A stretch of DNA of 22,026 nucleotides from positions 6,375 through 28,400 of IMG/VR virus record IMGVR_UViG_3300030329_003493. One strand, 5' to 3'. Positions 1,975-21,779 of this stretch are shown piece by piece. The translations under genes and the position numbers were made by a program. The notes under the pieces are model-generated. The model did no database searches and was not told where the DNA came from. It saw only the letters and a list, made by a program, of their open reading frames with translations. Each line of letters begins with the position of its first letter. Positions within the stretch are counted from its first letter, which is position 1. This DNA comes from a virus.

Positions 1975-4188
1975 TTATTTGATTATTTGTGAATTACTTC
2001 CAGTATTTTTATACTTAGAAATATGTATATTTAAATTTGGTTTTTCAATTTTTGCATTTGGTCTATATAGATGTCTATTACATGCCATCACTGCTAATCC
2101 ACTACTTATAGTAGCGTCATGTTTTGTCCTTTTATTTATATCGAACTTAGCCCAATCATTTAACAAATCGTTAAAATATAGACTACCAAATGTCCCATCT
2201 TGTTTCATACCCACGTGATCTTGTATGTACATCTCAATAGCTGCAGCGTGAGCTTGTTTTATATCTTCACTGGAGTTGGGAATACCTCCAATTTCTTTTT
2301 CCGCAACAGATAACTTATTCCAAAGTTTATCAGGTCTATTCATACTAAACCCTCTATAACCCCTTCTTCTAAGATAATACAATAATCTAGGTTTATTATT
2401 CTCTGCAAGTATAGGCATTCCATAAAATACTAACGCCATTAAAACATCTTCAAAAAAAGTTTCTGCTGTTGGTGGTCTAGATAAATATTCTAAAAAGAAT
2501 GTATTAGCTGGAGAATCCTCCATGCTAAATTTAGTTAAACCGTGTAAAGCTCCTTTAGATCCAATACCATCAACAGTTCCTGATATATCATAAGAGTCAC
2601 AACCAAATGCTCCCATATGTTCGTTACCAGGATACTTTATACCGTTTTTTATAATAATTTTATTTTGTAAATTCTGTGGCGGTGTCCAACTTATTTTAAA
2701 TCTACCTTTATTATCTGGATAAAATATAACTTGCGTATCTTTTACCCCATTCACCCATTGAAAATTACCTCTTGTTATCCCTAATGTTCTAGACATTTCT
2801 TCGTTATAATCTATCTGCTCGTATATCTTAACAAGATTAAATATACTATTTTTTGTCTCATCACGAAAAGCGTGTTCTGTAGTTCTTGGAAATTGGCGGT
2901 AAAATTCGTTCAACGCATCTTGATCGCCTTTTAATCCTTCTGCCTCATTATTCCAGTGATCTATTACACCTACATCTATTAGTTCGCCGTCTGGGGCAAA
3001 TATATCTGTGTCAGGAGTAGTAAATACAGGAACTCCGTGTTCATCAATAAAGCCTTCGTAGTTCCATTCCATTGGGATAAACAGAGAGTATAAGCCAGAT
3101 TTTGTTTGACCGTTTCTATTTCTTTGAGTGACATCGGATGCGTTGTATAGTTTTTTAAAATTTTCTCCACCTTTATCTAATGCGTTAGAAGTCGAACCCA
3201 TCATACATTTACCTATAATCCTACTACCTAATCGTAAACATGTTTTGGTTACTCTCCAGTTATTTAATATATTATCAGGCCTCTCCCATTTACCACTTTC
3301 ATCATGTACTAATAATGCTAGTTTTTCACCGTCATAACTATTATCACCAGTATTCTTCCAATCAATAGTTGTATCTAATCCTTGTATATCTTCTAATTTT
3401 TCATTAGCTGTTATTTTCTTTCTAGTAAATTTACTAGCTGGAACCCTATAAGCTAATTCTGTTTTTGGTCGATCCATACCGTCTTGAATCGGTTTAAAGA
3501 AAAATGGATAGTTTATACTAATTGGTACTACTTTATCAGTAAACATTTTCTTAGCATCTGCACCAGTTTTAGAAAGTATCCCATATCTACTATCACTTGA
3601 AATAGTAGCTAAATTAACTGCTTCTGCAGAAGACATAAAAGAAAACCCTGAACGTCTGTTCTTTAGATAACACATTCCATAACATCTTTTATCAGCTTTA
3701 CAAGCTTCCCAAAATATAAAGAATAATCTATTGGCTTCTCTAAAATCTGGAGCTCCTACATCAATTTTACTCCATTGAAGATACATATAGTGTGTACCTG
3801 TTATATATGTCGCCTTACTATTATTAGTAAACCAAAATCCTTCTTCTCTTCTTTTAAACTCTTCGTCTATATAATCAAACCATTGATCTTTAGCTTCTTC
3901 TGGATAACTTCTCCAATCAAATATATTCTTAAGTTTAGCTAAATCTTTAGGTTGATCAATTTTAACCCATTTGTTTTTTTCGTGTTTAAAAACATTAATT
4001 GGTTTAGGTAAGGCTATTCTTAAACCTTGTATTTCATATATTTCACCTATTTGACCAGTTTTAGATATAACAATAATATCATGTTCTTTATTATATCCAT
4101 ACTTCCATTTCTTACCTTTATTCATACGACTTATAGTGGTATGCTTTATAGGTTCAATTATTTTTAGCAGATCTTGCTCGTAACTCAT
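1975..4188 (-). CDS. terL: Terminase large subunit (packaging ATPase-nuclease)
   Basis: This 737-aa protein has the two-domain plan of large terminases, which translocate DNA into the prohead using ATP and cut it with an RNase H-like nuclease. In the ATPase half, KNRRSGFS (176-183) sits where the Walker A loop should be, LALLVHDE (290-297) is a Walker B with the catalytic glutamate, and GST (331-333) is the coupling motif III. In the nuclease half, D531 (GAFGCDSYD), E580/D581 (FFEDVLMAL) and D691 (KHDATISSG) are the likely metal-binding acidic residues. The Walker A loop lacks the usual lysine before the final S/T; R178/R179 upstream may replace it, as in other degenerate terminases. Its ATG overlaps the stop of the preceding 91-aa gene (ATGA), so the two are translationally coupled. 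Confidence 0.93.
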   Translation of the reverse strand: MSYEQDLLKIIEPIKHTTISRMNKGKKWKYGYNKEHDIIVISKTGQIGEIYEIQGLRIALPKPINVFKHEKNKWVKIDQPKDLAKLKNIFDWRSYPEEAKDQWFDYIDEEFKRREEGFWFTNNSKATYITGTHYMYLQWSKIDVGAPDFREANRLFFIFWEACKADKRCYGMCYLKNRRSGFSFMSSAEAVNLATISSDSRYGILSKTGADAKKMFTDKVVPISINYPFFFKPIQDGMDRPKTELAYRVPASKFTRKKITANEKLEDIQGLDTTIDWKNTGDNSYDGEKLALLVHDESGKWERPDNILNNWRVTKTCLRLGSRIIGKCMMGSTSNALDKGGENFKKLYNASDVTQRNRNGQTKSGLYSLFIPMEWNYEGFIDEHGVPVFTTPDTDIFAPDGELIDVGVIDHWNNEAEGLKGDQDALNEFYRQFPRTTEHAFRDETKNSIFNLVKIYEQIDYNEEMSRTLGITRGNFQWVNGVKDTQVIFYPDNKGRFKISWTPPQNLQNKIIIKNGIKYPGNEHMGAFGCDSYDISGTVDGIGSKGALHGLTKFSMEDSPANTFFLEYLSRPPTAETFFEDVLMALVFYGMPILAENNKPRLLYYLRRRGYRGFSMNRPDKLWNKLSVAEKEIGGIPNSSEDIKQAHAAAIEMYIQDHVGMKQDGTFGSLYFNDLLNDWAKFDINKRTKHDATISSGLAVMACNRHLYRPNAKIEKPNLNIHISKYKNTGSNSQIIK

Positions 4189-15568: not shown

Positions 15569-15641
15569 TTAGTAGTAATTTCTTGAACAAAAGTCGTAGT
15601 TCCACTTGTTTAGCGACTATAAATAATGCGAATGAGTACAC

Positions 15642-15680
15642 TGTAGTAATGGTTTTTGTGAGTTCGATTCTCACACTACA
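15642..15680 (+). ncRNA. tRNA-derived minihelix (no anticodon arm)
   Basis: GTGAG-TTCGATT-CTCAC (15658-15674) is a perfect T-arm with a consensus T-loop. The next six bases ACTACA (15675-15680) pair perfectly with TGTAGT (15642-15647), as an acceptor stem would. Only AATGGTTTTT separates the 5' acceptor strand from the T-arm. AATGGTT resembles a D-loop with its GG, while the rest of the D-arm, the anticodon arm and the variable loop are missing. It is therefore a mini-tRNA, a deleted tRNA relic, or the tRNA 3'-end part of an attachment site. A full tRNA could not be built from flanking bases. Confidence 0.45.
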
Positions 15681-15708
15681 ACTAATATTAATAAAAAAAT
15701 AAGCAAAT

Positions 15709-17841: not shown

Positions 17842-17979
17842 ATGGGAAAACAAAACGAAAAACTACTAAAAAATATAAAAATATATGAAAAAGAAAAAGC
17901 TGAACAGCAAAAATCCAAAGTATATGGACAAAAGCCTATTAAAGGAAAGACCAATAAAGAAAAGAGTACTGTACAATGA
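17842..17979 (+). CDS. Hypothetical Lys-rich 45-aa protein
   Basis: A 45-codon frame: MGKQNEKLLKNIKIYEKEKA, then EQQKSKVYGQKPIKGKTNKE and KSTVQ. About a third of the residues are lysine, with a short helical first half and a disordered end. It starts one base after the previous stop and is the last gene before the structured-RNA candidate at 18018. A 15-base string here (17927-17941) also occurs at 14457-14471, probably by chance. Coding is supported by spacing only. Confidence 0.45.
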   Translation: MGKQNEKLLKNIKIYEKEKAEQQKSKVYGQKPIKGKTNKEKSTVQ

Positions 17980-18017
17980 GGTAAAAGGAGTCAAAGTGTA
18001 CGGAGTATGGTACGAAT

Positions 18018-18180
18018 AACGAGGTGAGGGTGGTAATGATACACAAAGAGGTTTGGGATAGACGTTTTACGAAATCTCCTATAGAATAAAACTTTGTGTA
18101 CAAACGGCAGGATAAAGCGAGTTCCGAAACTCGGCTCACCGAAACTCGGAGAAGAACCACACCTGCCCGACCTCGTTTTA
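18018..18180 (+). ncRNA. Structured RNA candidate, about 160 nt
   Basis: A non-coding island with GC near 46% by hand count, in surroundings near 30%. A perfect 8-bp closing stem pairs 18018-18025 (AACGAGGT) with 18170-18177 (ACCTCGTT) and is followed by TTTTATT like an intrinsic terminator. Inside are a perfect 9-bp stem TACACAAAG/CTTTGTGTA (18040-18048 with 18092-18100), an inner AGGTTT/AAATCT stem, a 6-bp stem GGCAGG/CCTGCC (18106-18111 with 18162-18167) and a CGAGTT-CCGA-AACTCG hairpin (18118-18133). CCGAAACTCGG occurs twice, at 18124 and 18139, offering alternative pairings. GTGGT (18030-18034) with ACCAC (18156-18160) would be a pseudoknot. No class is recognised. Confidence 0.68.
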
Positions 18181-18192
18181 TTACAAACTAAA

Positions 18193-18215
18193 TACGAATA
18201 ACTACGGATAATATA
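18193..18215 (+). promoter_or_regulatory. T7-like promoter, copy G
   Basis: TACGA (18193-18197), spacer ATAACTAC, GGATAATATA (18206-18215), preceded by TTACAAACTAAA. It lies just after the structured-RNA candidate and 29 bases (from GG) before the ATG at 18235. Confidence 0.7.
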
Positions 18216-18234
18216 AACAATAAAATTAAATAAT

Positions 18235-18633
18235 ATGACAGAACTTGAAAACAAAATGGCAGCACTAAAACTGCTACAAAGCGAAACTAACGATAAAGTT
18301 AGAGATTATCAACAGCAAATAGCTGATTTACAAAAACAAATAGATGACTATAATAAACCAGAGTTAACGCCAGCTCAACTAGATGATATACAAGAAGCTA
18401 TTGAAAAAGCTGTTGAAAACTATAGCTTCAGTGACTGTGACAACTATGAAGTTGAGTATGGTCTTGACTATGATGGTAGAGTACACTTAGAATCTATAGA
18501 TTTATCTTGTTCTTATGAGTTAATTGAAATGATAGTTAATAAAGTACACAACTTATTTAAAGAAGCTGAGTGTCCTGAAGAATTAGATACAACAGAACCA
18601 GATAATCACCCAGTAGAAAAATTACAACAATGA
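18235..18633 (+). CDS. Coiled-coil hypothetical protein (132 aa)
   Basis: A 132-aa acidic protein. Residues 1-40 are a coiled coil with clear heptads (LENKMAALKLLQSETNDKVR, then DYQQQIADLQKQIDDY). A compact middle follows (LDDIQEAIEKAVENYSFSD and YEVEYGLDYDGRVHLESIDL), and then an amphipathic helix (YELIEMIVNKVHNLF) and a disordered acidic tail. Proteins of this plan are common in marine phages without known function; oligomerisation through the coiled coil is likely. Its stop overlaps the next start (ATGA). Confidence 0.7.
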   Translation: MTELENKMAALKLLQSETNDKVRDYQQQIADLQKQIDDYNKPELTPAQLDDIQEAIEKAVENYSFSDCDNYEVEYGLDYDGRVHLESIDLSCSYELIEMIVNKVHNLFKEAECPEELDTTEPDNHPVEKLQQ

Positions 18634-21167: not shown

Positions 21168-21779
21168 GAAAGAAATTTAAAATATTTAAATAATAACCGC
21201 ATCGTATACCGTCAACACCCAATAACAGATATACCAGATCAACAAAACGAAGTATATATGTTTTATGAAAACGGTACACATGAGTGTTATGAATTATTTA
21301 GATCATCAGCAAAAATAACTACATACAAATCGCTTAAATGGCATTTGCTTGTATTATGGTATTTAAACCCGCAACTTGATCAAGATCAGTTTATGCAATT
21401 AGCGGAAGTAATATGTCACAAACCTAATGGCTTTGTTTCTTTTGCAATACATGCTGAGTTATTACGTAAAATAGTATATGAAGTTAGCATGTTAGATTTA
21501 GATGAACCACCTAAAAATAAGTTGCGTAAAGTTATATTTAAACCATTTACTAGAATTAGTAAAGAAGAAAAACTACGTATTGTAGGTGAACTAATAGGCA
21601 GAAGTAAACGTATACATAAAGATGATATTTATGAGTGCATGTTAGATTTAAACGATATGAATAAAAAAATAACAATAAGTAAAATAGCAGGTTTGTTAAA
21701 CTGCTCTAGCAGAACTATACATAGAAATATGTGTGAAAATTTAAAACGAGAAAAAGAATTATTAAACAAACAACTATGA
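21159..21779 (+). CDS. Helix-turn-helix DNA-binding protein (206 aa)
   Basis: A 206-aa protein. The N-terminal half contains aromatic, strand-like segments (NEVYMFYENGTHECYELF) and a helical part (LKWHLLVLWYLN, FMQLAEVICHKPNGFVSFAI). The C-terminal region ITISKIAGLLNCSSRTIHRN (171-190) is a classic helix-turn-helix of the type that recognises DNA in regulators and sigma region 4. Its stop overlaps the start of the sigma-like gene (ATGA), suggesting the two work together: one supplies a sigma region 2, the other an HTH. The conserved element at 21147-21167 covers its start, so autoregulation is plausible. Confidence 0.65.
   Translation: MSHERNLKYLNNNRIVYRQHPITDIPDQQNEVYMFYENGTHECYELFRSSAKITTYKSLKWHLLVLWYLNPQLDQDQFMQLAEVICHKPNGFVSFAIHAELLRKIVYEVSMLDLDEPPKNKLRKVIFKPFTRISKEEKLRIVGELIGRSKRIHKDDIYECMLDLNDMNKKITISKIAGLLNCSSRTIHRNMCENLKREKELLNKQL

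Follow-up and report, generated by a model that had tools for sequence, protein, structure and literature searches.

The stretch at positions 18018-18180 (plus strand) of the window (the whole analysed stretch of 22 kb, out of a virus record of 28.4 kb) is a member of a modular family of phage structured RNAs that belongs to no Rfam family. With Rfam 15 and a set of open-access papers as the yardstick, the family is previously undescribed, and its carriers are a group of uncultured phages whose hosts are probably Bacteroidota. Two sockets in a core of about 40-54 nt take either minimal loops or folded modules from a pool common to other phage RNAs, with about 20 modules counted by eye. An earlier sequence-only reading of this DNA had missed this plug-in architecture.

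A structured RNA and its relatives

The RNA lies in an island of 45% GC within a window of 32%, equally rich stretches making up 1.1% of 163-nt windows, and its minimum free energy (MFE) of -46.3 kcal/mol (z = -2.6) was equalled by 3 of 200 shuffles. The structure goes beyond chance because compensatory changes are seen in homologues, among which no reading frame is conserved through the stretch. The sequence-only reading had proposed a novel structured RNA some 160 nt long in a gene-free, GC-rich island between gene segments and just ahead of a promoter-like motif, and in this it was right. The 8-bp closing stem, the 9-bp and 6-bp inner stems, the possible pseudoknot GTGGT/ACCAC and the terminal T-run that it named are likewise all in place (Table 1).

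At the gathering threshold, the Rfam 15 covariance models matched neither the window nor the surroundings of the RNA in its relatives, the sole hit being a tRNA elsewhere in locus L003. The unmatched models include those of RNase P, tmRNA, hammerhead ribozymes, riboswitches, GOLLD and ROOL, and ARAGORN called no tRNA or tmRNA gene in the window. Matches at a relaxed threshold (mir-724, mcrA and Plastid-ycf2) all fell far under the gathering threshold. A hammerhead had also been considered from the motif CGAUGAG..CGAAAC in one module (A3, see below), and was rejected since the three-way junction is absent and other copies read, by eye, CGACUAG or CGAUUAG.

When the downstream 132-aa gene was used as a query, without any use of the RNA, 12 viral-contig loci were recovered, seven with the same core upstream of the gene, three with a related RNA (M1) and two with neither. 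These 12 loci are the only RNA-independent sample; the others were mostly picked by core or M1 sequence, and frequencies among them are biased. A search with ACGGCAGGATAAAGC returned 74 stretches, many of which are the RNA. We parsed 38 copies of the core from about 37 phage records, normally one per phage, which come down to 24 distinct copies once the arms are removed; the alignments used arm-trimmed or excerpted sequences, with the register set by hand from conserved flanks. The terminases of the carriers are 66-89% identical to that of the window, with the exception of one record (G025, locus L047) at 27%, and the core thus spans a wide phage distance with about 40 of its positions nearly fixed.

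By terminase, the nearest cultured relatives of the window are podoviruses of Flavobacterium, Cellulophaga, Tenacibaculum and Maribacter, with about 46% identity among the Flavobacterium matches listed, while an uncultured spring phage reaches 63%. The RNA had no match in the cultured phages and plasmids searched and is absent from phage MW202828 (terminase 63% identical). The cellular genomes searched contain no core and a single M1 match, on a phage contig of the same clade (L274, JAAXIF010000025.1) that was assigned to a Sphingobacteriales MAG; this terminase occurs on two contigs of the MAG, a weak pointer to a Bacteroidota host. A loose pattern scan for M1 gave mostly chance matches.

Table 1. 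Features of the RNA and its immediate surroundings (window coordinates).
Feature	Position	Strand	Remarks
44-aa lysine-rich ORF MKKKKLNSKNPKYMDKSLL..YGVWYE	17885-18019	+	Ends where the RNA begins; read from sequence
P1, 5' strand AACGAGGT	18018-18025	+	8 bp with 18170-18177; overlaps stop codon of the 44-aa ORF
Invariant GGGTGGT	18028-18034	+	Kept in 24 distinct copies except for a single G-to-C change outside the stem
P2, 5' strand GTGGT	18030-18034	+	Pseudoknot stem (putative); 3' strand ACCAC at 18156-18160
Socket 1 with plug	18035-18104	+	AAYG-helix-CAAA type; 9-bp helix carrying module A1
Socket-1 helix TACACAAAG / CTTTGTGTA	18040-18048 / 18092-18100	+	9 bp; covaries
Module A1 ACAAAGAGGTTTGGGATAGACGTTTTACGAAATCTCCTATAGAATAAAACTTTGT	18043-18097	+	98-100% identical in L002, L030, L068, L263, L270-L272
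Invariant CGGCAGGATAAAGC	18105-18118	+	Contains P3 5' strand GGCAGG, 18106-18111
Socket 2 with plug, module A2	18119-18153	+	Two CCGAAACTCGG copies paired together
Doubled CCGAAACTCGG	18124-18134, 18139-18149	+	Long-range helix, AAC/AAC internal loop
Invariant GAACCACACCTGCCC	18154-18168	+	P2 3' strand ACCAC, 18156-18160; P3 3' strand CCTGCC, 18162-18167
P1, 3' strand ACCTCGTT	18170-18177	+	Pairs with 18018-18025; covaries
T-run	18176-18179	+	After P1; probable transcript end
Promoter-like motif AAATACGA-N8-GGATAATAT	18190-18216	+	Next transcription unit; repeated motif
132-aa gene	18235-18633	+	Downstream; query for relatives; not tied to the RNA

Anatomy of the core

The family consensus reads P1 - GGGUGGU - socket 1 - AACGGCAGGAUAAAGC - socket 2 - GAACCACRCCUGCCC - P1'. 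In P1, all six aligned pairs are changed on both sides across the 24 distinct relatives, with 19 double-sided-change cells against 4.4 in shuffles, cells which, here and for the stems below, are not independent events given that many records are fragmentary and share ancestry; the signal is lost when the partner strand is slid. P2 (GUGGU:ACCAC, 5 bp) and P3 (GGCAGG:CCUGCC, 6 bp) interleave on paper with a 1-nt linker and are present in 24 of 24 distinct copies, the sole change being one G-C to G-U. Since their bases are invariant, covariation is silent on the pseudoknot. The nested fold with P3 enforced equals the free MFE, a fold with P2 lies within 0.5 kcal/mol of it and the stems are sterically compatible, so that P2 and P3 could plausibly form together. 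The core is likely an H-type pseudoknot whose two long loops are the sockets. A search for cores with an altered P3 (GTGGTTTAA-N7-ATAAAGC) found no convincing variant.

The putative topology S1-S2-S1'-S2', with its short linker and A-rich loop, would be that of the SAM-II and preQ1-II riboswitches, from which the core differs in its conserved sequence, in leaving their Rfam models unmatched, in its inconstant downstream gene and in its plug-in sockets. The motifs UUUAAC and GAUAAA, which recall SAM-II, are topologically misplaced.

The sequence-only reading had also suggested a switch, whose pairing partners turn out to lack conservation among the relatives. For example, CGAGTT (18118-18123), to which it gave two mutually exclusive pairings, is replaced by CAAAAA in some relatives with the same module. 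The proposed competitor of the closing stem, GGTGAG/CTCACC, exists on paper, with CTCACC lying in an optional arm, and is lost wherever socket 2 carries another arm, as it does in most relatives. The duplication of CCGAAACTCGG is real; the alternative pairings drawn from it find no support. Between L024-type and L013-type copies ACCGA/UCGGU becomes UCCGA/UCGGA, an A-U to U-A change beside CCGA/UCGG, which argues for one long-range A2 helix and against alternative hairpins, and the MFE fold likewise pairs both copies in a single long-range helix.

Modules shared between sockets and scaffolds

Each socket holds either a minimal loop or a folded module. In socket 1 we find a minimal UUAA, a helix framed as AAYG-helix-CAAA, M1 (a junction module) or some other large module, and in socket 2 a minimal CAAGA or an arm. 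The socket-1 helix, which is of the framed type in the window, has 13 double-changed cells against 3.4 in shuffles. Module A1, found in only 8 viral stretches, sits in socket 1 in the window, in socket 2 in L002, in slot b of M1 in L030 and in separate RNAs in the remaining loci (L068, L263, L270-L272). Module A2 recurs in L012, L015, L021, L024, L026, L049 and L084, with different inner arms in L021 and L084. Module A3 occupies slots a and b of M1 as well as socket 2, there both directly and nested inside another module; its closing stems differ and are compensated (ACAG/CTGT, ATGG/CCAT, GTAG/CTAC, GTGG/CCAC), and closing and inner stems together have 10 double-changed cells against 4.1 in shuffles.

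M1 is also a second stand-alone scaffold (ACGAGYGUGGCGCGUGAGAYGUGUA..AUCUURC..UCACUUGGCCACCUCGU), whose outer and arm stems covary with 48 double-changed cells against 13.4 in shuffles. When the 87 arms of core and M1 were compared, 58 pairs scored at least 27 bits, against a mean of 0.15 in dinucleotide shuffles, and 26 of the 58 join different slots; a few of these 26 are one arm of L030 or L238 counted within a larger socket, which leaves the conclusion unchanged. Arm ends fit their own partner far better than swapped ends at the arm positions L1, L3 and M1a (L3, 25 of 31 against 19% with swapped ends; M1a, 28 of 31 against 31%), while at M1b own and swapped ends score alike because the arms share nearly one closing stem. 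We take this as our best argument that the modules are RNA plugs which fold and connect by way of helices, as opposed to DNA repeats. In two loci, L233 and L248, M1 lies inside another outer frame (CCACGAWA-M1-AAGCTCGTAC..GTACGGGCTTTTCGTGG), a third chassis.

To our knowledge, an exchange of folded modules among the fixed sockets of several scaffolds, with the joining helices rebuilt on each occasion, has not been described for any other natural RNA family. The RNA resembles GOLLD, ROOL and OLE (PMC12286853), structured non-coding RNAs of unknown role with intricate, covariation-supported folds, some of them in phages; those RNAs are several hundred nucleotides long with a fixed architecture, whereas the present family combines a small core with exchangeable modules. 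Like the phi29 pRNA, it is a phage structured RNA in the range of about 120-170 nt, but it lies in an early-type region and not beside the terminase (positions 1975-4188, on the opposite strand), and no sequence similarity to pRNA was seen.

Genomic setting, possible role and neighbouring RNAs

The left half of the window carries late genes (portal, terminase, GroEL) on the minus strand, and the right half, on the plus strand, small early-type genes that include a DNA ligase and a match to sigma-70 region 2, the latter at 21776. The motif downstream of the RNA, which had been called a T7-like promoter, does resemble the 5' part of the T7 promoter and is in fact a repeated phage motif, ATACGA-N8-GGATAATA, present eight times on the plus strand of the window (14920, 15086, 15261, 15815, 16560, 17105, 18192 and 19241). 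Its copies precede plus-strand transcription units, and it is probably the phage's own promoter. A search for a T7-type RNA polymerase gave no match, with control genomes equally silent. In L014 and L017, minimal cores follow right behind a Bacteroidota-type TATCTTTG promoter, downstream of the end of an ssb-like gene (..DLPF*); the arrangement suggests that the RNA can have a promoter of its own.

The explanation that we favour, and hold to be reasonably probable, is that of a stable, trans-acting modular RNA with a pseudoknot core whose arms bind varied partners. The RNA would be transcribed at the 3' end of the upstream operon, as part of its transcript, would end at P1 and the U-run, and would persist as a stable non-coding RNA acting in trans. 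The invariance of the core hints at a single conserved partner and the fast change of the plugs at partners that vary with host or situation, a variation that would account for rapid arm swapping by recombination. Our best guess is a scaffold that presents exchangeable binding modules, perhaps against host factors.

Placement at the end of operons would also suit a 3' UTR element, a structure that terminates the transcript and shields or processes the mRNA of the upstream operon, with only P1, the U-run and the knot of importance and the arms as filler. Pseudoknots are able to block 3' exonucleases, the RNA runs from the stop codon of the 44-aa ORF to a T-run immediately ahead of the promoter-like motif, and 29 of the 38 copies have a T-run after P1. 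However, in arrays of two or more RNAs (L012, L015, L024, L028) the T-run is missing ahead of the next member, modules in different sockets keep their sequence even at unpaired bases, which filler would not do, and the genes upstream vary among relatives (an ORF resembling the 44-aa ORF is found in many, not all). We regard such an element as a rather doubtful account.

A cis-acting leader or riboswitch controlling the downstream gene appears improbable. H-type pseudoknots are a common riboswitch architecture, as in SAM-II and preQ1-II, and a single family accounts for 21 of the 33 downstream genes. A cis-regulatory riboswitch would, however, keep a fixed place before related genes on the same transcript, and the RNA precedes at least seven gene families, the 132-aa gene lies 5' of it instead in L026, L028, L084 and L086, and the promoter-like motif stands between RNA and next gene in 22 of 38 copies. 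No expression platform was seen and the Rfam riboswitch models were unmatched. Since the RNA sits where transcription units end and its neighbouring genes are unrelated, a trans-acting RNA is likelier than a riboswitch.

Insertion of mobile DNA hairpins (REP- or MITE-like) into the loops of an ordinary RNA could explain identical arm sequences at unrelated places, yet it is very unlikely, as module borders coincide with helix ends, closing stems are rewritten pair by pair, the plugs keep to fixed sockets and occur in several scaffolds, and A1 is found in so few viral stretches. We give equally little credence to a guide- or RT-associated RNA (omega-RNA, retron, Y RNA) of a phage-encoded RNP: the likeness, which consists of arms that vary on a conserved scaffold and of tRNA-like RNAs in the vicinity, is superficial, and 15 phage records, many of them fragmentary, contain no RVT_1 (PF00078, for retrons), no Ro60/TROVE (PF05731, for the phage-encoded partner of a Y RNA) and no OrfB/TnpB zinc-ribbon (PF07282, for the IscB/TnpB of omega-RNA or reRNA), domains for which control genomes were positive. 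The partner of a Y RNA could, though, be supplied by the host.

A more speculative proposal, to which we attach a low probability, is that the plugs are aptamers or decoys for different host factors, such as a nuclease, a signalling molecule or a translation factor, forming a counter-defence or host-takeover repertoire. If so, the pseudoknot core, the M1 junction and the tRNA-like RNAs would be interchangeable display chassis, an RNA counterpart to the way phage anti-defence proteins shuffle their domains. The architecture points to an RNA-based tool kit. Should transcripts and partners be confirmed, shuffling would emerge as a mode of evolution that RNA domains share with protein domains, workers in structural biology and in RNA design would gain a natural parts list of stand-alone modules and compatible joints, and new RNA-mediated phage-host interactions would probably be found in Bacteroidota phages.

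The same islands hold true tRNAs and tRNA-like RNAs with T-arm and acceptor and without a standard anticodon arm, some of which bear modules from the same pool; the core RNA shares these islands with phage tRNAs but has neither acceptor nor T-arm and is called by neither ARAGORN nor the Rfam tRNA model. One tRNA-like RNA lies in the window itself (15592-15682, plus strand), where a hairpin AGTCG..CGACT is followed by TGTAGT..T-arm GTGAG-TTCGATT-CTCAC..ACTACA; it has no standard anticodon arm and ARAGORN makes no call. In its relatives (L001, L030, L045, L059) the hairpin is compensated (ACTCG/CGAGT, AAGACG/CGTCTT).

Another class with acceptor and T-arm conserves (C/T)TGACGA(G/A) just 5' of the T-arm (L012, L015, L020, L052, L075, L076, L084, L086, L231, L236, L239, L244, L271, L274), and module GTARACGTTTTCACGAGCT often occupies the position of its anticodon arm. 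A third class, of about 160 nt, follows the plan GCCCAAGTACAAGGTGAACAGTAAATCTATGGTAATGTGGGAA...T-arm..CTTGGGC with an exchangeable inner arm, and was seen in L152 and L241 and also in L231 and L240.
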